Assembly (NCBI GenBank): GCA_030050125.1
Contig: JASIJN010000332.1
Coordinates: forward strand, 1-7,274
Source: Streptosporangiaceae bacterium
GTDB lineage: Bacteria; Actinomycetota; Actinomycetes; Streptosporangiales; Streptosporangiaceae
Direction: 5' to 3'
DNA length: 7,274 nt
Under the pieces are notes generated by a model that was not told the origin of the DNA, searched no databases, and worked only from the letters and a program-made list of their open reading frames with translations. A program made the position numbers and the translations under genes. Positions 2-7,274 of the stretch are shown in pieces. How positions within the stretch are numbered: position 1 is the first letter of the stretch; each line of letters opens with the position of its first letter.

Positions 2-1672
2 TGGCTGGCCGAAGGCCTGCGTCAGCTGGGCGGCAAGGCCGCCGCGACGCCGGCCGCCCCGCGTGGTGACGGGGATTACCCGCGCGAGCGGCTGGCGAAT
101 CCCTGGCCGGGTCGCTGGCTGATCGGGCCGGCCCTGGCCGCGGCCGGATGCGCCGGCGCGCTGACCACGCTCGGCCCCGAGAAGGCGCTGCTGGCCCTGT
201 TGCTGGTGACGGTGGTGGCGGGCGTCTGGCGGTGGCCGGCGCTGGCGGCCTACCTGGCCATAGGACTGACGCCGCTCACCGCGAACCTCGACCTGGGTCA
301 CGCCCTGCCCCTCATCCGGCCGAACGAGGCCCTCGACCTGCTCGTGGGGGCGACGCTGGCGGTCCGCGGGCTGGTCAGGGCGCGCACGGGCGAGCTGCCC
401 AGGATCCGGCTCGGCCGGATCGAGCTGGCCATGGTCCTGATGGCGGTGTCCAATTCCGCCGTCCCGCTGCTGTGGATGATGATCCGCCAGGAACCGATCA
501 CCCAAAGCGATCTCCTCTACGCCCTGGTGATGTGGAAGCTGCTCGGCATCTACGTGATCGTCCGCCTGGCGGTGCGCACCGAAGCGCAGATACGGCGGTG
601 CCTGTGGCTGTCGGTCGCGGCCGCGTGCGTCGTCGCGCTGGTCGCGGTCCTGCAGTCGCTGTCGCTGTTCGGCGTGCCGCGGCTGCTGGCCGAGTTCTTC
701 GGCGGCCCCACGCAGTTCGGACCGCCCGGAGGCCGGGGCAGCTCGACGCTGGGGCTGCCCGCGGCCACCGCGGACCTCATGATCTTCAACCTGGCGGTCG
801 TGTGCGGCCTGTGGACGCGGTACCGGCGGCATCCGGTGGTCCTGGCGGCCGCCGCCGCGCTGATGTCGTTCGGCGCGCTCGCCGCGGGCGAATTCGCCGG
901 TGTCATCGGCTTGGTCGTGGGCCTGGCCTGCATCGCGATCGTGACCCGCTCGGCGAGGCTCCTCGGATTGGCTCTGCCGGTCCTGGGGGCCGGCGGCTAC
1001 GTCCTGTGGCCGGTGATCAGCGGCCGCCTCCTCGGCTTCCAGTCCGCGTCCAGGCTGCCGGCGAGCTGGATCGGGCGGCTGCAGAACTTGCAGACCTATT
1101 TCTGGCCCAAGCTGTTCTCCGACTGGAACTTCGTGCTCGGCGTCCGGCCATCGGCCGTGGTCGACGTGGTGAGCGCGTCCGGAGACCAGGTCTGGATCGA
1201 GAGCGGCTATACCTGGCTGCTCTGGGGCGGCGGCATCCCGCTGCTGCTGAGCTTCCTGTTCTTTGCCTACGTGACGGCGCAGCAGGGCTGGCGGGCGGCA
1301 CAGGGGGGCCGGCGGGCGCAAAGCGTCGCGGGCGTCGCGGTTTTCGTGGCGGTCGTCGTCATCACCGTCCTCATGATCTTTGACCCGCACCTGACCTACC
1401 GGGGCTCGGCCGACGACTTCTTCTTCCTGATCGCGCTGGCCGTGCCCAGGGACCGGCGTCCCGGGCAGGCCCGCAACACCTACCACGCACTAGCCGAACT
1501 GAACGCACGGAGATCAGATGACAGTCGACAAGACCATTCACGACACGGCCCGCGAACCGAGCATCCGCGCCGGGAGGCGCCGGCGGCTGCGGCCACAGGG
1601 ACAGCAGGGGCCGCAGGAGCCGCAGTCGCCGAACGGAGCACCGCCGCAGCCGCCGCGGCGCCTGGGCGGTGA
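2..1672 (+). CDS. O-antigen ligase / Wzy-like polysaccharide polymerase, 5'-truncated by the window
   Basis: Integral membrane protein of the O-antigen ligase/polymerase type, which joins or transfers lipid-linked glycan units on the outer face of the membrane. The frame is open from base 2 with no ATG or GTG before base 206, so the true start lies upstream of the window. The visible part is 556 residues. About eleven hydrophobic segments can be picked out between bases 120 and 1440. Between them is a large polar section (about 1000-1200) ending in VWIESGYTWLLWGGG, which resembles the late E-x-GY motif region of Wzy/WaaL proteins. GRGSSTLGLP, around base 735, resembles the family's usual R-x-GTLGNPN loop. 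The last 60 or so residues (after about 1490) are Ala/Arg-rich low complexity and overlap the next gene. Base composition suggests this tail is not the selected frame there. Polymerase and ligase cannot be separated by sequence reading alone. The family is fairly sure, the exact role is not. Confidence 0.78.
   Translation, partial: WLAEGLRQLGGKAAATPAAPRGDGDYPRERLANPWPGRWLIGPALAAAGCAGALTTLGPEKALLALLLVTVVAGVWRWPALAAYLAIGLTPLTANLDLGHALPLIRPNEALDLLVGATLAVRGLVRARTGELPRIRLGRIELAMVLMAVSNSAVPLLWMMIRQEPITQSDLLYALVMWKLLGIYVIVRLAVRTEAQIRRCLWLSVAAACVVALVAVLQSLSLFGVPRLLAEFFGGPTQFGPPGGRGSSTLGLPAATADLMIFNLAVVCGLWTRYRRHPVVLAAAAALMSFGALAAGEFAGVIGLVVGLACIAIVTRSARLLGLALPVLGAGGYVLWPVISGRLLGFQSASRLPASWIGRLQNLQTYFWPKLFSDWNFVLGVRPSAVVDVVSASGDQVWIESGYTWLLWGGGIPLLLSFLFFAYVTAQQGWRAAQGGRRAQSVAGVAVFVAVVVITVLMIFDPHLTYRGSADDFFFLIALAVPRDRRPGQARNTYHALAELNARRSDDSRQDHSRHGPRTEHPRREAPAAAATGTAGAAGAAVAERSTAAAAAAPGR
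1507..1517 (+). promoter_or_regulatory. ribosome binding site for the chain-length regulator gene
   Basis: GGAG at 1509-1512 lies five bases before the ATG at 1518. It is the clearest Shine-Dalgarno sequence in the window. It supports the 1518 start even though that start lies 155 bp inside the upstream reading frame. The next plausible in-frame start is the GTG at 1695, just past the upstream stop. Confidence 0.6.
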
Positions 1673-3104
1673 CCGTCAGGCCAGACGGCTGGCGGTGCTG
1701 CACGCGCGGCACTCCCGGTCCTCGCTGCGTGCCGGGGCCTCCTGGTCGCGCTTCCTGGTGGCCTACGCCGCCTGGATCATCGTGGTGACGCTCGCCGCCG
1801 TCGGCGCGGCCGCCGCGCTGGCGCACTCGCAGACGCCGTTGTACCGGTCCCAGGCGGTCGTGATCGTGTCGCCGCCGGCCGTGTCGGCCAGCAGCGGCAA
1901 CCCCCCGAACATGGCGACCGAGGAGGACCTCGTCAAGTCCGGGACCGTGCTGACGCGGGCCTCGGCACTGCTGCACGTGCCCGTCGCCACGCTGGCCAGC
2001 GGGCTGTCGGTCAACGTGCCGAGCACGACGACCCTGCTGCAGATCTCCTATTCGAGCCCCGTGCCTCGCATCGCACAGCAGCGAGCGCAGGGAATCGCCC
2101 GGGCGTACGTCTCCTACCGTTCGCCGGTCCACGCCGCGACCTCGGCCGGCCACGCGGTGGTGAGCGCCACCCCGACCGCCGATCTGGTCACCTCCGCGGC
2201 CCTGCCGAGCTCGCCGGCCAGCCCCGACTACCTGATCGACATCGGCGCCGCGCTGATCGTCGGGCTGCTGCTGGCCATCGGCTCCGCCTGGCTTCGCGAT
2301 CGTACGGACGACCGCCTGCGCGGCCCGCTGGACCTCGAGGCCCAGGCCGGCGCCCCGGTGCTCGGGTCGATCCCCGCGTTCCGGCCCGGCCGCGACGATC
2401 GCGCCGGCCGGCTCGTCATGGCCGCTTACCCGGACTCCGCCGTCGCCGAGGCCTATCGCTGCCTGCGGACGCGGCTGCTGCAAGCGGCGGCCCACCGGGA
2501 CGCCAAGACGCTCCTTGTCACCAGCCCGGGCTGGGAGGACAAGAGCACCGTCGCCGCCAACCTGGCGGCCGCGCTCGCGCAGTCGGGCCGCCAGGTGGTG
2601 CTGGTGTGCGCCGACCTGCGATGGGGGCGGGCCGACGAGCCGTTCGGGCCGGGCGCGGGTTACGGCCTGAGCGGCGTACTGGACGGGCAGGCGGGCGTGG
2701 CCGAGGCCCTGCAGGCAACCGAGGTCCCCGGGCTGCGGCTGCTCCGGCCCGGCGCGGTCCCCGCCGATCCGGCCGCGCTGCTGCAACGTCCCGCCTTGCC
2801 CGCGACGCTCGGCGAGATCCGCGGGCGGGCGGACGTCGTCGTGATCGAGGCCCCTCCGCTGCTGGCCAGCCCGGACGCCCAGCCGCTCGCGGACCTGGCG
2901 GACGTGATCCTCATCGTGGCCGACGCGCGCAGATCTGCCCGCAAGCACGTGCGGCTGGCCATGCACGAGGCCGAGCACACGCGGGGCAAGCTGGCCGGGT
3001 GGGTGCTCGGCAACGTGGGCAGGCGCCGCCGCCTGCGGCGCAGCGGGCCTGAGTCGCTCGCGACGAACGACCGGGGCCTTACTACCGCGGGGCGGGCTTG
3101 GTGA
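1518..3104 (+). CDS. Wzz/BY-kinase-like polysaccharide chain-length regulator with degenerate ATPase motifs
   Basis: A 528-residue fusion of a Wzz-type membrane domain and a cytoplasmic BY-kinase/MinD-like ATPase domain, the usual single-chain form in high-GC Gram-positives. It should control chain length or export of the polymer. Residues 1-70 are basic and Pro/Gln-rich. TM1 is about 79-102. The extracytoplasmic loop is about 105-235, with the Pro-rich signature SSPASPDYL before TM2 (about 238-258). EAYRCLRTRL (311-320) is the conserved element leading into the kinase domain. The nucleotide motifs deviate. The P-loop reads SPGWEDKST (336-344), with Asp in place of the Gly before Lys and one residue fewer than usual. 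Walker A' reads VLVCADLR (361-368), with Cys for the first Asp. Walker B reads VVVIEAPP (440-447), with Glu for Asp. The C-terminus is Arg-rich (GRRRRLRR, 501-508) and has no tyrosine cluster. It overlaps the upstream gene by 155 bp and the convergent methyltransferase gene by 23 bp. The family is confident. Kinase activity is doubtful. Confidence 0.86.
   Translation: MTVDKTIHDTAREPSIRAGRRRRLRPQGQQGPQEPQSPNGAPPQPPRRLGGDRQARRLAVLHARHSRSSLRAGASWSRFLVAYAAWIIVVTLAAVGAAAALAHSQTPLYRSQAVVIVSPPAVSASSGNPPNMATEEDLVKSGTVLTRASALLHVPVATLASGLSVNVPSTTTLLQISYSSPVPRIAQQRAQGIARAYVSYRSPVHAATSAGHAVVSATPTADLVTSAALPSSPASPDYLIDIGAALIVGLLLAIGSAWLRDRTDDRLRGPLDLEAQAGAPVLGSIPAFRPGRDDRAGRLVMAAYPDSAVAEAYRCLRTRLLQAAAHRDAKTLLVTSPGWEDKSTVAANLAAALAQSGRQVVLVCADLRWGRADEPFGPGAGYGLSGVLDGQAGVAEALQATEVPGLRLLRPGAVPADPAALLQRPALPATLGEIRGRADVVVIEAPPLLASPDAQPLADLADVILIVADARRSARKHVRLAMHEAEHTRGKLAGWVLGNVGRRRRLRRSGPESLATNDRGLTTAGRAW
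3023..3041 (-). terminator. possible hairpin terminator for the methyltransferase transcript
   Basis: A perfect inverted repeat, GCGCCGC (3023-3029) and GCGGCGC (3035-3041), with a five-base loop. It lies 41 bp beyond the methyltransferase stop codon and inside the 3' end of the convergent chain-length regulator gene. There is no T-tract. GC-rich coding DNA yields such hairpins by chance, so this is tentative. Confidence 0.2.
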
Positions 3105-3816
3105 TCAGCCCCAGCTGGTCGTCGGTGATGACGGCGTCGAGGCCCTTCGACCGGGTGAACTCCACATACGCCGCGTACGCTCCGGCCCACCGCCCCTGGT
3201 CGTGACAGTCGTCGGTCACGATGACCCCGCCAGGGGACAGCAGCTTGTAAACGGCCTCCAGCACCGCGAGGACGGGCCGGTACAGGTCGACGTCGACGAG
3301 CGCGAACCGAAACGGCGCGATGCTCAGGTAGTCGAAGGTCGTGGCGTCAGCGCGGAAGGATCTCACGCGGCTCACGCCGTTGCGGCGCATTGTCCGGTCG
3401 AACCACTGCTTGCTGTTCCCGCGGAAGTCTTTGTCATACCGGTAGCGGCGGCCGAGCGCGTGCTCGCATGAGATGTCGTCCGCGGTGAAACCGGCGAATG
3501 TGTCGATCGCATAGTAGTCGACATTGATGCCAAGGGTATCGATATGACGATTAAGAAAGACGCTCGTCGCACCATAAGCGCAGCCAACCTCGAGGATCGA
3601 CCCCGGGACTTCCGATGTTTTCGTGACCTGCTCGCACAGAAACCCGAGTTGCGACGGGGAGAACATGTACCTGTACCTGTACGTGAACAAATCCCGGGCC
3701 GGTGTCCGGAGCAAGAGCTGCTTTGCGCGGTGTGCCAGGAGTGATTGCGAAGGCCAGGCCGACGGCAGGATCCGCTCTGGTCCGCGGCCCGATACGGGCG
3801 TCTGGTGGTCTTTCAT
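3082..3816 (-). CDS. TylF/MycF-type class I SAM-dependent O-methyltransferase
   Basis: A 244-residue methyltransferase, probably O-methylating a sugar of the polymer or its precursor as TylF and MycF do on macrolide sugars. SAM-binding motif I is ILEVGCAYGATS (74-85). YYAIDTFAGF (101-110) matches the family's D-T-F-x-G block. FALVDVDLYRPVL (171-183) and GGVIVTDDC (196-204) match the Asp residues that bind the metal in MycF-like enzymes (D174, D176, D202, D203). I chose the ATG at 3816 because the sequence just upstream carries the block shared with the acyltransferase gene. Upstream in-frame ATGs at 3858 and 3870 also lack a Shine-Dalgarno sequence and would run through that element. No start has a good Shine-Dalgarno, so a leaderless transcript is plausible. 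Bases 3481-3600 are only about 53% G+C, far below the neighbours, hinting at separate acquisition. The gene diverges from the GT2 gene. The exact acceptor is unknown. Confidence 0.86.
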   Translation of the reverse strand: MKDHQTPVSGRGPERILPSAWPSQSLLAHRAKQLLLRTPARDLFTYRYRYMFSPSQLGFLCEQVTKTSEVPGSILEVGCAYGATSVFLNRHIDTLGINVDYYAIDTFAGFTADDISCEHALGRRYRYDKDFRGNSKQWFDRTMRRNGVSRVRSFRADATTFDYLSIAPFRFALVDVDLYRPVLAVLEAVYKLLSPGGVIVTDDCHDQGRWAGAYAAYVEFTRSKGLDAVITDDQLGLITKPAPR

Positions 3817-3822
3817 ACGTGA

Positions 3823-3890
3823 ACAATCGGTCAGGGCGGCGATGACCGGAACCCTCATACGTGCGAGCATGGCTACGTCAGACGGGGATA
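3823..3890. promoter_or_regulatory. shared divergent control region, copy 1 (methyltransferase / GT2)
   Basis: Inside the 108-bp divergent gap (3817-3924), the plus strand reads ACAATCG (3823-3829), 21 bp, ACCCTCAT (3851-3858), 6 bp, GAGC (3865-3868), 2 bp, GGCTAC (3871-3876), 8 bp, GGGATA (3885-3890). The same blocks in the same order occur at 6277-6337. Read on the minus strand, CGATTGT lies 6 bp from the methyltransferase ATG. GATTGT would therefore be at about -12 to -7 if transcription starts at the A of ATG, and ATGAGGGT at about -42 to -35, where an activator or upstream element would sit. The block identities are seen directly. The promoter role is inferred. Confidence 0.55.
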
Positions 3891-3893
3891 CCA

Positions 3894-3905
3894 GGCGCCG
3901 GCGCC
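3894..3905. repeat. 12-bp perfect palindrome in the divergent gap
   Basis: GGCGCCGGCGCC is its own reverse complement and lies 19 bp before the first possible start codon of the GT2 gene. It could be a regulator half-site pair, but short all-GC palindromes arise easily in this base composition. The second divergent gap has no equivalent. Confidence 0.3.
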
Positions 3906-3923
3906 CGGCTGCACCATTGGGAT

Positions 3924-3947
3924 AATGGAAAGTGAGACAATGGAAAG
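3924..3947 (+). repeat. direct repeat duplicating the GT2 start codon
   Basis: AATGGAAAG occurs at 3924-3932 and again at 3939-3947, 15 bp apart in the same frame. This gives two successive Met-Glu-Ser starts (MESET then MESQW). GGAAAGTGAG at 3927-3936, three bases before the second ATG (3940), partly resembles a Shine-Dalgarno sequence, so the second start may be the one used. GATAAT at 3921-3926 resembles a -10 box and would also favour the ATG at 3940. Confidence 0.45.
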
Positions 3948-5244
3948 CCAATGGTTCTCCCCGGTCCGGATGATGGACGTGGAGCTGACGCGGCCGCTGC
4001 CGGCCGTTCCCGGTGACGGGCAGCGCGGTAAGGCGTGGGTGCTGGGACGGCTGCACACCGAGCCGGTCGGCGTGTGCGTCGTGCGGCCCGGTCCGCAGGG
4101 GCTGACCTCCGGCCAGCTGGCCGCGCTGCTCTGGGACGAGGTCCGCGAGCCGGTCACCGAGCGCTTCGCCGAGGCCGGGCTCGCCTCGCCCCGGCCGCTC
4201 ACGGCAGCGGGCCTGGAGGCCGACCCCGCGACGTGGCCGTTCCTGAGGCGCCGTCAGGCGGCGCTGGCCGACCCGCCGTTCATCAGTGTCATCGTCCCCA
4301 CCCGGGGCCGGCCGGAGCGGGTCGACGACTGGCTGGCGTGCCTGCGGCGGCAGGAGTACCCGCGCTTCGAGGTCGTGGTGGTGGACAACGCTCCGACCAC
4401 CGACGACGTCCGGGCCGGCGTCGAGGCCGCACAGGGGGTGAAGGGAGGCGGCCTGTCGCTGCGCTACGTCCGGGAGCCGCGCGGCGGTACGTGCTGGGCG
4501 GCCAACGCCGGGGTAGCGGCCTCGGCGGGCGAGATCATCACGTTCTGCGCCGACGACGGTGAGCCAGACCCTCACTGGCTGGCCGGGCTGGCCTGCGGGT
4601 TCGCCCGGGGCGATGACGTCGGCTGCGTCACCGGCATGGTGCTTCCGGCCCGGCTGGACACCGCGGCGCAGGAGCTGTACGAGCAGTTCGGCGGGTTTCG
4701 CAAGAGCCGCGGGTTCTCGCCGGCCATCTTTTCCCGCCACGGGCCGCAGAGCCCGCTATACCCGGTTCCCCCGTTCGGAACCGGCGCGTGCGTCGCTTAC
4801 CGCAAGGACGCGCTCGAGCGCATCGGCGGCTTCGACGTCGCGCTGGGGCCGGGAACGCCCGCCCGCGCCGCGGAAGACCTGCTCGCGATGACGATGGTGC
4901 TGCTCGCCGGGTACCGCCTCGCCTACGAGCCCGCGGCATTGATGCGCCACGAGCACCGCCGGGATCTGGACGGCCTGCGCGTCCAGATGCAGGGGTACGG
5001 CGTCGGCCTCACCGCCTACTACGCCGCCCTCCTGCGGCACCGGCCGGGCGTGCTGCCCGAGCTGATCAGGCTGGCGCCCACCGGGTTGCGTTACCTGCGG
5101 GCGGCGAGCTTCCCGGCCACCACGGCTCCGCTGGATCTGCTCGACGAGCTCAAACGGCAGCATCGCCGGTCGATGCTGCTCGGGCCGGTGGCCTACCTGC
5201 GCAGCGTGCGCAGGCAGGCACGGGTCGCGGCGGCCGGTTACTGA
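3925..5244 (+). CDS. family 2 glycosyltransferase (GT-A fold)
   Basis: A 439-residue (or 434 from the ATG at 3940) inverting glycosyltransferase that would add a sugar from an NDP-sugar to the growing glycan at the cytoplasmic membrane face. An N-terminal region of about 110 residues, with the element DVELTRPLP (18-26), resembles the leader domain seen in many actinobacterial GT2 proteins. The GT-A domain begins at FISVIVPTRGRPERV (119-133). VVVVDNAP (150-157) is the nucleotide-binding strand. The metal-binding DxD position reads CADDGEPDPHWL (208-219), with Gly212 where a third Asp is common. FGTGACVAYRKDAL (284-297) and the AED motif (316-318) that supplies the catalytic base are intact. 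No clear membrane span is seen, although the C-terminus is basic. Its 3' end overlaps the convergent acyltransferase gene by 7 bp. Donor and acceptor cannot be predicted. Confidence 0.9.
   Translation: MESETMESQWFSPVRMMDVELTRPLPAVPGDGQRGKAWVLGRLHTEPVGVCVVRPGPQGLTSGQLAALLWDEVREPVTERFAEAGLASPRPLTAAGLEADPATWPFLRRRQAALADPPFISVIVPTRGRPERVDDWLACLRRQEYPRFEVVVVDNAPTTDDVRAGVEAAQGVKGGGLSLRYVREPRGGTCWAANAGVAASAGEIITFCADDGEPDPHWLAGLACGFARGDDVGCVTGMVLPARLDTAAQELYEQFGGFRKSRGFSPAIFSRHGPQSPLYPVPPFGTGACVAYRKDALERIGGFDVALGPGTPARAAEDLLAMTMVLLAGYRLAYEPAALMRHEHRRDLDGLRVQMQGYGVGLTAYYAALLRHRPGVLPELIRLAPTGLRYLRAASFPATTAPLDLLDELKRQHRRSMLLGPVAYLRSVRRQARVAAAGY
5196..5214. terminator. possible bidirectional hairpin at the GT2 / acyltransferase convergence
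   Basis: CCTGCGCA (5196-5203) and TGCGCAGG (5207-5214) form a perfect eight-base-pair stem with a three-base loop (GCG). It lies 23 bp past the acyltransferase stop codon on the minus strand and 27 bp before the GT2 stop codon. It is the strongest hairpin I found near a gene end. There is no T-tract, which is common for actinobacterial hairpin terminators. A weaker five-base-pair hairpin (GTGGT/ACCAC, 5259-5273) follows the GT2 stop codon by 14 bp. Confidence 0.35.
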
Positions 5245-6269
5245 AGATCGATCTCGTAGTGGTCGTGCACCACGCCGCCGGCCCCGAAAGACACCTTGAA
5301 GTCGTACAGGCTTTCGTTCAGGTGCCAGCCCTCGTGCGGGGTGGAGACCCCGAAGTCGAAGAACCGGTGCCCGCGACGGCGGGCCAGGTCGATGGCGTGC
5401 TCCATGACCAGGTCGGTGACGCAGGCGACCCGGCCCTGCTCGGTGGTGGCCGTGTACTGCATGTGCATCGCCGGGCCCGCGGCGAACAGCACGGCGCCGC
5501 CGGCGAGTGCCCCGCCCGCCCAGCCGGTGATCAGGATGATGTCCTCGGGAAACAGGTCATGCAGCAGCCGGATCTCCGCGAGCGAGTGCACCGGCGAGGT
5601 GTCATGCCGCCGGGCGAGGTTGGCGTCGAGGATCTGCCAGAAGCCGGCGACGTCGCTCCAGCTGTCCCGGGTGGAGACGCCGGCCGCCTCGGCGCTCCGG
5701 CGCGAGCGGAGCCGCCGCTGGGTGACCCGGCCCCGGCGGCCCAGGTAGATCGCGGCGGACAGGTCGCTGCGGTAGCGCCGCGCCTCGAGCCGGAACAGCG
5801 CGTAAAGGTCGTCCTCCGCCGGCTCGGTGTGGTACAGCGCCGGCACCGCCTTGTAGCGCAGGCGGCGGTAGCCGAGCCGCCGGTAGTGATCGGCGATGCC
5901 GTGCAGGGCCGAGATCATCGACGCGCCGCGGACCGAGCCGTCGTGGATTAGCCCGCCGTAGGTCAGTCCGGGATGGCTGACGATCACCTCGGGGCGCGAC
6001 GGGTTCTCCGCCGCCGGGAGCACGCCGGTCACCCGCCCCCGGCGATCTTCCACCAGCACGGACCGGTCACAGAAACGATCGCCGTGGTAGGACAGGAAAC
6101 GGCGCGTGTGCAGGAACGTGCCGTTGCAGGACCGGGCGACGAGATCGTCCCAGGCCCCGGCGTTTCCCGGCGCATAGCCCCGGACCGCGATATCGGCCGT
6201 GCCCTGATTCGCGCCCTGATTCACGGTCTGATTCGTCACGCTTTCAATGGCCTCTTGTTCGGCTCTCAT
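5238..6269 (-). CDS. FemAB-like / GNAT-superfamily acyltransferase
   Basis: A 343-residue protein of the FemAB-related acyltransferase type often found in polysaccharide loci. It may transfer an acyl or aminoacyl group to a sugar or lipid-linked intermediate in the cytoplasm. After a polar N-terminus with an Asn-Gln repeat (12-22), the first lobe shows TFLHTRRFLSYHGDRF (51-66) and SHPGLTYGGLI (98-108). The second lobe includes GGALAGGAVLF (252-262), HMQYTATTEQGR (269-280), FFDFGVSTPHEGWHLNESLYDFK (starting at 303) and a C-terminal DHYEIDL. DFG-S-x5-G-x-x-LN-x-x-L-x-x-FK is the hallmark of this group. The ATG at 6269 is preferred because the block shared with the methyltransferase promoter lies 7 bp upstream. 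There is no nearby Shine-Dalgarno. It overlaps GT2 by 7 bp and diverges from GT4. A plain GNAT N-acetyltransferase is the alternative annotation. Confidence 0.84.
   Translation of the reverse strand: MRAEQEAIESVTNQTVNQGANQGTADIAVRGYAPGNAGAWDDLVARSCNGTFLHTRRFLSYHGDRFCDRSVLVEDRRGRVTGVLPAAENPSRPEVIVSHPGLTYGGLIHDGSVRGASMISALHGIADHYRRLGYRRLRYKAVPALYHTEPAEDDLYALFRLEARRYRSDLSAAIYLGRRGRVTQRRLRSRRSAEAAGVSTRDSWSDVAGFWQILDANLARRHDTSPVHSLAEIRLLHDLFPEDIILITGWAGGALAGGAVLFAAGPAMHMQYTATTEQGRVACVTDLVMEHAIDLARRRGHRFFDFGVSTPHEGWHLNESLYDFKVSFGAGGVVHDHYEIDLQ
6201..6236. repeat. three 12-bp tandem repeats inside the acyltransferase N-terminus
   Basis: Plus-strand units are GCCCTGATTCGC (6201-6212), GCCCTGATTCAC (6213-6224) and GGTCTGATTCGT (6225-6236). 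They are in frame and encode the repeated Asn-Gln pattern TNQ-TVNQ-GANQ near residues 12-22 of the acyltransferase. The repeat is outside the recognisable fold and could expand or contract by slippage without shifting the frame. Confidence 0.75.
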
Positions 6270-6276
6270 GCTTCAG

Positions 6277-6337
6277 ACAATCGATCCTTGACCCCGCTGC
6301 CCGCCACCCTCATGTGGCTGAGCCGGGCTACGGGATA
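6277..6337. promoter_or_regulatory. shared divergent control region, copy 2 (acyltransferase / GT4)
   Basis: Inside the 110-bp divergent gap (6270-6379), the plus strand reads ACAATCG (6277-6283), 22 bp, ACCCTCAT (6306-6313), 6 bp, GAGC (6320-6323), 2 bp, GGCTAC (6326-6331), directly followed by GGGATA (6332-6337). These are the same five blocks in the same order as at 3823-3890. The minus-strand CGATTGT lies 7 bp before the acyltransferase ATG, compared with 6 bp at the methyltransferase gene. That position suits a -10 element of a leaderless transcript. The role is inferred. The block matches are read directly. Confidence 0.55.
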
Positions 6338-6352
6338 CGGAGGATGTCTCGA

Positions 6353-6379
6353 TAACGGGCACGCGTTAGCCTTTGGCAC
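6353..6379 (+). promoter_or_regulatory. candidate -10 box and inverted repeat ahead of the GT4 gene
   Basis: TAGCCT (6367-6372) fits the actinobacterial TANNNT -10 pattern and ends seven bases before the ATG at 6380, the spacing expected for a leaderless transcript. No Shine-Dalgarno sequence precedes that ATG. An inverted repeat, TAACG (6353-6357) and CGTTA (6364-6368) with a six-base spacer, overlaps the -10 box and could be an operator. No convincing -35 box was found. Confidence 0.35.
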
Positions 6380-7274
6380 ATGCGGGTAAAGTCGCCGGGA
6401 GTTCCCGGGCATGTCCTCATCGTGGTGGAAAACCTTCCGATGGGTATTGACCACAGGGTTCGCAAGCAGGTTGGCGACCTGCTGGCGAACGGTTACCGCC
6501 TGTCCGTGGTGACCCGGGCCGACCCGGCCAATGCCCGCTACCGCACAATGCCCGGGGTCAACGTGCTCGAGTACCCGCCACCGGCCGAGCCCCGCGGGAA
6601 AGCCGGGTATTTCAGGGAGTACGGGATATCGCTCTGCTACGCGACCGTGCTGAGCCTGGCGGCCAGGTCCCGCGGCCAGATAGACGTCGTGCAATTCTGC
6701 CAGCCCCCCGATATCTACTTCGCGCTCGCCTGGATTTTGCGGGGGCTGGGCATGAAGGTCGTATCCGAGCAGCGCGATCTCATGCCCGAGCTTTTCGCCG
6801 CCAAGTACGGTCAGCCGGGCCGGGCGGTCGCGTCCGCCCTGGGGTGGCTCGAGCGGCGGACTCAGCGCGCCGCTCACCATACGCTGTGCACCAACGAGAC
6901 CGCCCGCAGGCGCATGATCGAGGCAGGCGCCGAACCGGGGCTGGTGACGATCGTCGGGAACGGACCGGTGCTCGGCAGGGTCGAGGCGGCGGCGGCCGAC
7001 CCTGCCCTCCGTGGCGGGCACAGGTACCTGTGCTGCTGGATCGGCAAGATGGGCCGTCAGGACCGCCTGGATCTGCTGCTGCGCTGCATCGAGTACATCG
7101 TCAGGGATCTCGGGCGCACGGACTGCGGCTTCGCGATCCTCGGTGACGGCGAGTGCCTCGACCAGGCGCGCGCCGAGGTGGCCAGGCTGGGCCTGCAAGC
7201 CTGGGCCGACCTTCCCGGCTGGCTGCCCGAGGACCAGGTGTTCAGCTACCTGGCCAGCGCCGACCTCGGCCTGG
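6380..7274 (+). CDS. family 4 glycosyltransferase (GT-B fold), 3'-truncated by the window
   Basis: The first 298 residues of a retaining GT4 glycosyltransferase, open to the right edge. The N-terminal acceptor lobe starts with a hydrophobic strand and HRVRKQVGDLLANGYRLSVV (25-44), followed by IDVVQFCQPPDIYFALAW (101-118). The linker has the characteristic TNETARRRMIEAGA (171-184) and VTIVGNGP (189-196). The C-terminal donor lobe begins YLCCWIGKMGRQDRLDLLL (216-234), where homologues usually read GxMGPQDGVD. It continues with GRTDCGFAILGDGECL (245-260) and GWLPEDQVFSYLASADLGL. The E-x7-E catalytic/donor-binding motif should lie just downstream, so activity cannot be judged. The first ATG in this frame is at 6380 with no Shine-Dalgarno, and a leaderless start is plausible. 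It would transfer a sugar to the lipid-linked intermediate at the cytoplasmic face. The family is very clear and the substrate unknown. Confidence 0.92.
   Translation, partial: MRVKSPGVPGHVLIVVENLPMGIDHRVRKQVGDLLANGYRLSVVTRADPANARYRTMPGVNVLEYPPPAEPRGKAGYFREYGISLCYATVLSLAARSRGQIDVVQFCQPPDIYFALAWILRGLGMKVVSEQRDLMPELFAAKYGQPGRAVASALGWLERRTQRAAHHTLCTNETARRRMIEAGAEPGLVTIVGNGPVLGRVEAAAADPALRGGHRYLCCWIGKMGRQDRLDLLLRCIEYIVRDLGRTDCGFAILGDGECLDQARAEVARLGLQAWADLPGWLPEDQVFSYLASADLGL

Follow-up and report, generated by a model that had tools for sequence, protein, structure and literature searches.

Related sequence in two divergent gaps of an actinobacterial exopolysaccharide cluster: probable promoter regions of two tailoring genes

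Divergent promoter pairs that share one regulator site are a known arrangement in bacteria, and polysaccharide genes can be preceded by a short element of the JUMPstart/ops kind, which belongs with the NusG paralogues RfaH and LoaP and acts in transcribed DNA. Here we consider how these systems compare with a 7,274-nucleotide (nt) stretch of DNA from a Streptosporangiaceae bacterium (contig JASIJN010000332.1; the whole stretch is called the window), a G+C-rich segment of an actinobacterial-type exopolysaccharide cluster. Two gaps between divergent genes, one separating a methyltransferase gene from a GT2 glycosyltransferase gene (gap 1) and the other an acyltransferase gene from a GT4 glycosyltransferase gene (gap 2), contain related sequence. 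This similarity is real and local, and the two gaps probably hold related promoter regions that serve the tailoring genes, those of the methyltransferase and the acyltransferase, which lie on the minus strand.

As in a divergent promoter pair, the site in each gap stands between two divergent genes and is repeated within one cluster; a repeated upstream site, the mark of a shared operator or regulon, is found in two gaps. Unlike such pairs, the shared sequence is one-sided, beside the minus-strand genes, and its regulator is only postulated. With JUMPstart/ops the gaps have in common a short element upstream of polysaccharide genes and the letters GTAGC, but by inspection the resemblance is confined to these five bases. 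Because ops acts in transcribed DNA, no such DNA would exist if the gap genes are leaderless. The ops sequence as a whole is absent from the gaps. Among the papers listed, judged by title and the opening of the abstract, none describes an element of this kind for exopolysaccharide clusters of actinobacteria, which is weak evidence of absence. Leaderless actinobacterial promoters offer a further comparison. Actinobacteria commonly have leaderless transcripts and -10 elements of the form TANNNT (PMC3898074, PMC4895711), the leaderless class making up 26% of Mycobacterium tuberculosis genes with a primary start site (PMC3898074) and 21% of primary starts in Streptomyces coelicolor, where the -35 motif is NTGACC (PMC4895711). 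What the gaps share with these promoters is a -10-like hexamer close to the ATG, at 6-7 nt, together with the lack of a usable Shine-Dalgarno sequence and of a clear -35. They are unlike them in that the minus-strand hexamers, GATTGT, lack the first T of TANNNT, and in that the start sites are predicted ones.

The first-pass annotation had described five blocks in the same order in both gaps, and this is borne out to the base (Table 1), together with the spacers of 21/22, 6/6, 2/2 and 8/0 nt and the distances of 6/7 nt to the minus-strand ATG. It had also noticed no ACAATCG or ACCCTCAT elsewhere, and no other copy is present on either strand of the window; GGCTAC recurs at 995 and, reversed, at 5868, and GGGATA at 3919 and 6623. 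Two blocks extend one base further than had been described, to GGCTACG and GGGATAC. Read on the minus strand, the order in both gaps is GTATCCC, CGTAGCC-N2-GCTC-N6-ATGAGGGT-N21/22-CGATTGT-N6/7-ATG, in which the part from CGTAGCC to ATGAGGGT is termed the core. Separately from the blocks, an exact direct repeat, TCATACGTG, occurs at 3813-3821, where it contains the methyltransferase start codon, and at 3855-3863, where it overlaps the ACCCTCAT block.

We compared the gaps with 5000 pairs of first-order Markov sequences built from them, and with 5985 real windows taken from 19 of 29 loci (G+C >60%; some loci overlap) and from the window itself. None of the Markov pairs reached the ungapped identity of 49 (maximum 48), the best ungapped segment of 18 (maximum 15) or the global score of 18 (maximum 14.5), and one reached the gapped local score of 24.5. 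A segment of at least 18 was found in 0 of the 5985 real windows against either gap, an ungapped identity of at least 49 in three against gap 1 and in none against gap 2, and a chain of three colinear 7-mers in 16 of 50,000 random pairs and 0 of 5781 real windows. Because both kinds of control seldom or never reach the scores of the gaps, the similarity is counted as real, at roughly 1e-4 to 1e-3. Chance likeness of two G+C-rich gaps can draw on the comparison of a single pair and on the three real windows that equal the identity with gap 1, but it is very improbable, the segment score, the global score and the 7-mer chains all standing at or below about 3e-4.

Counted upstream from the minus-strand ATGs, the local alignment extends from about 7 nt to about 76 nt, with matches in 50 of 71 aligned columns, and the plus-strand starts are not reached. 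Since it adjoins the minus-strand genes, the similarity is primarily a feature of the regions upstream of the methyltransferase and acyltransferase genes. Within the first 100 nt of coding sequence, 35/100 positions agree for the minus-strand pair and 33/100 for the plus-strand pair (random stretches of the window, 29.4 +/- 5.1), and 20-column windows on the plus-proximal side, taken at the best offset, match at 3-7 of 20 columns, except for the last, at 10/20, a level reached by 4.7% of random 20-mers. The gaps had been interpreted as a duplicated bidirectional promoter/operator. The part of this proposal that stands is that both gaps hold control-like sequence of related kind; bidirectional control of four genes by one regulator is not borne out, given the one-sided alignment and the low plus-proximal matches.

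We suggest instead that each gap could be the promoter region of its minus-strand gene, the two following one common design. The -10-like GATTGT, 6-7 nt ahead of the ATG and with no shared -35, would form a leaderless promoter; the core, at about -62 to -35, would be in a position from which an activator could touch RNA polymerase; and one regulator would set the expression of the two sugar-polymer tailoring enzymes. The plus-strand glycosyltransferase genes would have separate promoters, with or without a share in the central site. The step from the position of the core to a regulator is one that we infer. The account that we tentatively prefer, with a likelihood somewhat short of even, is thus that the methyltransferase and acyltransferase genes have related leaderless promoters, each with a regulator site upstream; it entails putative leaderless starts, a putative regulator and presumed co-expression. 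The pair could have arisen either by duplication or by convergence.

In favour of this account are the similarity beyond chance and its end at the coding starts, and also the sequence next to the start codons. A hexamer with A2 and T6 precedes all four divergent starts by 6-7 nt (GATTGT, GATTGT, CACCAT and TAGCCT, taking GT2 at 3925), compared with 8.9% of gap positions and 4.1% of window positions at this distance. A Shine-Dalgarno-like 4-mer at a usable distance is absent from the same four starts, AAGG/AGGA at -20/-19 and GAAG at -5 upstream of the acyltransferase gene being unusable as such; the operon-internal kinase-like gene (1518) has GGAG at -9 and no A2/T6 hexamer.

A number of observations weigh against leaderless minus-strand promoters of common design. 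The hexamer scan covered spacings of 4-9, over which the background is 27% in the gaps and 12% in the window; with the 27% background, four hexamers at four starts give modest support only, and the two minus-strand sites are not independent. Besides the missing first T of GATTGT, the full TANNNT is present in just one of the four hexamers (TAGCCT, at GT4), so that the minus-strand promoters are not classed as proven members of the leaderless type. There is no shared -35, the minus strands carrying TTCCGG and GGCGGG at 17 nt, and a scan with the sigma-70 consensus gave no promoter. On the plus strand of gap 1, ATGACC-N17-GAGCAT makes a -35/-10 pair superior to every minus-strand candidate, and GGAA lies at -13 if GT2 begins at 3940. 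Allowing at most one mismatch, the core gave just 2 matches in the 341 genomes of the family, the reversed control giving 1 among the matches listed. Finally, the grouping of matches into blocks does not reach significance, since at least three runs of at least 7 arise in 2946 of 20,000 column shuffles; the word 'blocks' is therefore by itself no evidence of selection.

The lack of clustering also favours descent without shared control, in which a promoter-containing gap was copied, or gene modules were moved, and the copies diverged, leaving the blocks as remnants and not as selected sites. The proportion of matching columns and the small insertions and deletions that separate the two copies fit such a history, but the similarity ends at the coding starts and the -10-like block is equidistant from both ATGs to within 1 nt, and we hold descent of this kind to be possible though unlikely.

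Could the blocks belong to the plus strand? GGCTAC lies 48 nt ahead of the first plus-strand ATG in both gaps, a correspondence absent from the first-pass annotation, and the S. coelicolor -35 motif NTGACC is on the plus strand of both; in gap 1 it takes the form ATGACC, and 17 nt further on stands GAGCAT, overlapping the GAGC block. The blocks might then be parts of GT2 and GT4 promoters with leaders of about 40-50 nt; these promoters would be of the usual NTGACC/TANNNT type in gap 1, or else ACCCTCAT..GGCTAC would serve an alternative sigma factor. Gap 2, however, has no A2/T6 hexamer 15-20 nt downstream of its TTGACC (6288-6293, plus strand), the NTGACC positions relative to the blocks differ between the gaps, GT4 already has TAGCCT at 7 nt, and the shared CGATTGT is left unexplained; to our knowledge ACCCTCAT..GGCTAC fits no sigma-factor consensus. 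The 48-nt distance in gap 1 depends, moreover, on a GT2 start that is uncertain because a 15-nt tandem duplication at 3918-3947 (TGGGATAATGGAAAG / TGAGACAATGGAAAG) yields two in-frame ATGs (3925 and 3940). A matching database protein, P0241 (434 amino acids, aa), begins at 3940. Among the matches listed, the GT2 N-terminus MESETMESQWF is unlike its relatives, most of which have a longer stretch ahead of a conserved WFSP-like motif. We regard plus-strand promoters as an improbable source of the blocks.

Control at the level of RNA or of a leader peptide is another way to read the shared sequence, as the ATG within ATGAGGGT opens a short upstream frame. In gap 2 this is a 15-codon frame, MRVAGSGVKDRLSEA (6266-6313, minus strand), and its closing TGA shares bases with the start codon of the acyltransferase gene (ATGA); in gap 1 the ATG of ATGAGGGT is in frame with the methyltransferase gene and would add 14 codons. 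Both frames are read directly from the sequence, and GT4 begins CACATGCGGGT, close to CACATGAGGGT, which speaks for such control. Yet by inspection no Shine-Dalgarno sequence precedes the ATG of ATGAGGGT, stop-free frames are common at high G+C, and no stretch like MRVPVIAALTDCSR was seen by eye among 120 listed methyltransferase relatives, some viewed to 70 residues. As for RNA, folding is no better than that of shuffles (minus strand, z 0.60 and -1.14), and there is no Rfam match up to E 1. Either form of control is distinctly improbable. The annotated methyltransferase start residue is the same in near relatives (e.g. P0121, P0122 and P0126); P0123 begins 6 residues earlier, and some distant relatives (e.g. 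P0168) have long N-termini of other kinds. The acyltransferase start is consistent with its five nearest relatives, P0002-P0006.

Relatives of the methyltransferase, GT2 and acyltransferase are numerous in the protein set, but where the genes occur together only metagenome proteins represent them here. Longest contigs of equal size across the match lists number 9 for acyltransferase/GT2, 6 for methyltransferase/GT2 and 3 for acyltransferase/methyltransferase; because 0.2-0.3 would be expected, this suggests, indirectly, that the three genes tend to stay linked in relatives, which also favours the leaderless-promoter account. Sets that appear linked by equal length include P0019/P0143/P0257 (6623 bp), P0029/P0149 (34,720 bp) and P0136/P0242 (5331 bp), and the protein cluster of P0241 occurs on contigs of up to 20,863 bp. 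A profile search of genome contigs with the acyltransferase found 15 loci, the nearest of which (64%), from a Streptosporangiaceae metagenome-assembled genome, begins inside the gene. In the family of that genome the acyltransferase is present in 3 of 341 genomes at E<=1e-40, and the methyltransferase in 0/3 at E<=1e-3; the methyltransferase profile found 0/341 at E<=1e-50, and 0/197 in a class sample and 0/296 in a phylum sample at E<=1e-40. GT2 has relatives in 3 of 338 genomes at E<=1e-80 (52-56% identical), with upstream regions unlike gap 1 by eye, and a 58% acyltransferase relative likewise has no similar gap by eye. The genes are thus rare in genomes at these thresholds. As far as read, the genome relatives of acyltransferase and GT2 sit in other surroundings, and, the acyltransferase aside, no protein of the window had a tblastn match (E<=1e-5) in 21 loci. 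Viral contigs contain no exact core match and no relative by the acyltransferase or methyltransferase profile; plasmids gave two short glycosyltransferase matches and no methyltransferase.

A family-wide motif is not supported; either the element belongs to this lineage in particular or it has not been retained. In a looser scan of the 29 loci (348,875 bases), the core with at most three mismatches gave three matches, one in locus L006 and the others the two one-mismatch family matches (L022 and L023). ATGAGGGT-N21/22-CGATTGT, again with at most three mismatches, gave six, the best of which (L006, one mismatch) falls by inspection in a coding-like stretch and is taken as chance; CGATTGT-N6/7-ATG had no match in these loci.

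The likeness of the two gaps is fairly ordinary in kind, as is the proposed mechanism as such. A bolder extension of the leaderless-promoter account, unlikely when taken in full, is that a regulator not yet described, in an uncultured actinobacterial lineage, recognises the core and switches on leaderless mRNAs for tailoring enzymes at several points of the cluster, so that methylation and acylation are set apart from the assembly of the chain. If the leaderless-promoter account is right, the window would offer a concrete candidate for the operator and promoter arrangement of exopolysaccharide tailoring genes, in a cluster type known here mainly from metagenomes, and tailoring and assembly genes could be timed separately.

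Table 1. Genes, gaps and shared or promoter-like sequences of the window.
Feature	Position	Strand	Remarks
Membrane-protein frame	2-1672		no Pfam match
Wzz/tyrosine-kinase-like protein gene	1518-3104		TIGR01007 and PF13614, both below cut-offs
TylF-type O-methyltransferase gene, 244 aa	3082..3816	-	start ATG 3816; Pfam PF05711 4.9e-11, PF13578 4.1e-10
Gap 1, 108 base pairs (bp), methyltransferase/GT2, divergent	3817..3924
-10-like hexamer GATTGT, gap 1	3823..3828	-	6 nt before ATG 3816, inside CGATTGT; putative
Block ACAATCG	3823 and 6277	+	CGATTGT on - (3823-3829 and 6277-6283)
Possible promoter, gap 1: ATGACC, 17 nt, GAGCAT	3842..3870	+
Block ACCCTCAT	3851 and 6306	+
Core CGTAGCC-N2-GCTC-N6-ATGAGGGT, gap 1	3851..3877	-	candidate regulator site
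Block GAGC	3865 and 6320	+
Block GGCTAC	3871 and 6326	+
Block GGGATA	3885 and 6332	+	fifth block
Fifth block GTATCCC (GGGATAC on +), gap 1	3885..3891	-	upstream of core
Weak -10-like hexamer CACCAT	3912..3917	+	7 nt before ATG 3925
GT2 glycosyltransferase gene	3925..5244	+	PF00535 1.3e-20; start 3925 or 3940
FemAB/GNAT-type acyltransferase gene, 343 aa	5238..6269	-	start ATG 6269; PF13480 6.1e-8; TIGR03019 7.5e-19, below cut-off
Gap 2, 110 bp, acyltransferase/GT4, divergent	6270..6379
-10-like hexamer GATTGT, gap 2	6277..6282	-	7 nt before ATG 6269, inside CGATTGT; putative
Core CGTAGCC-N2-GCTC-N6-ATGAGGGT, gap 2	6306..6332	-	candidate regulator site
Fifth block GTATCCC (GGGATAC on +), gap 2	6332..6338	-	touches core
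TAGCCT, full TANNNT -10-like hexamer	6367..6372	+	7 nt before GT4 ATG 6380; putative
GT4 glycosyltransferase gene	6380..7273	+	cut by window end; PF13579 1.1e-13

The last four genes of the window alternate in strand (methyltransferase -, GT2 +, acyltransferase -, GT4 +), so that their junctions are by turns tail-to-tail and overlapping or divergent, as at the two gaps; the convergent pairs overlap at their 3' ends at 3082-3104 (23 nt) and 5238-5244 (7 nt). Ahead of them lies the Wzz/tyrosine-kinase-like gene, whose product may not be an active autokinase. Its Walker A region is odd (SPGWEDKST, with no glycine preceding the lysine), and tyrosine is absent after residue 382 of 528. The membrane-protein frame at the start of the window is putatively polymerase-like, and it shares 155 nt (1518-1672) with the kinase-like gene, which is read there in a different frame.

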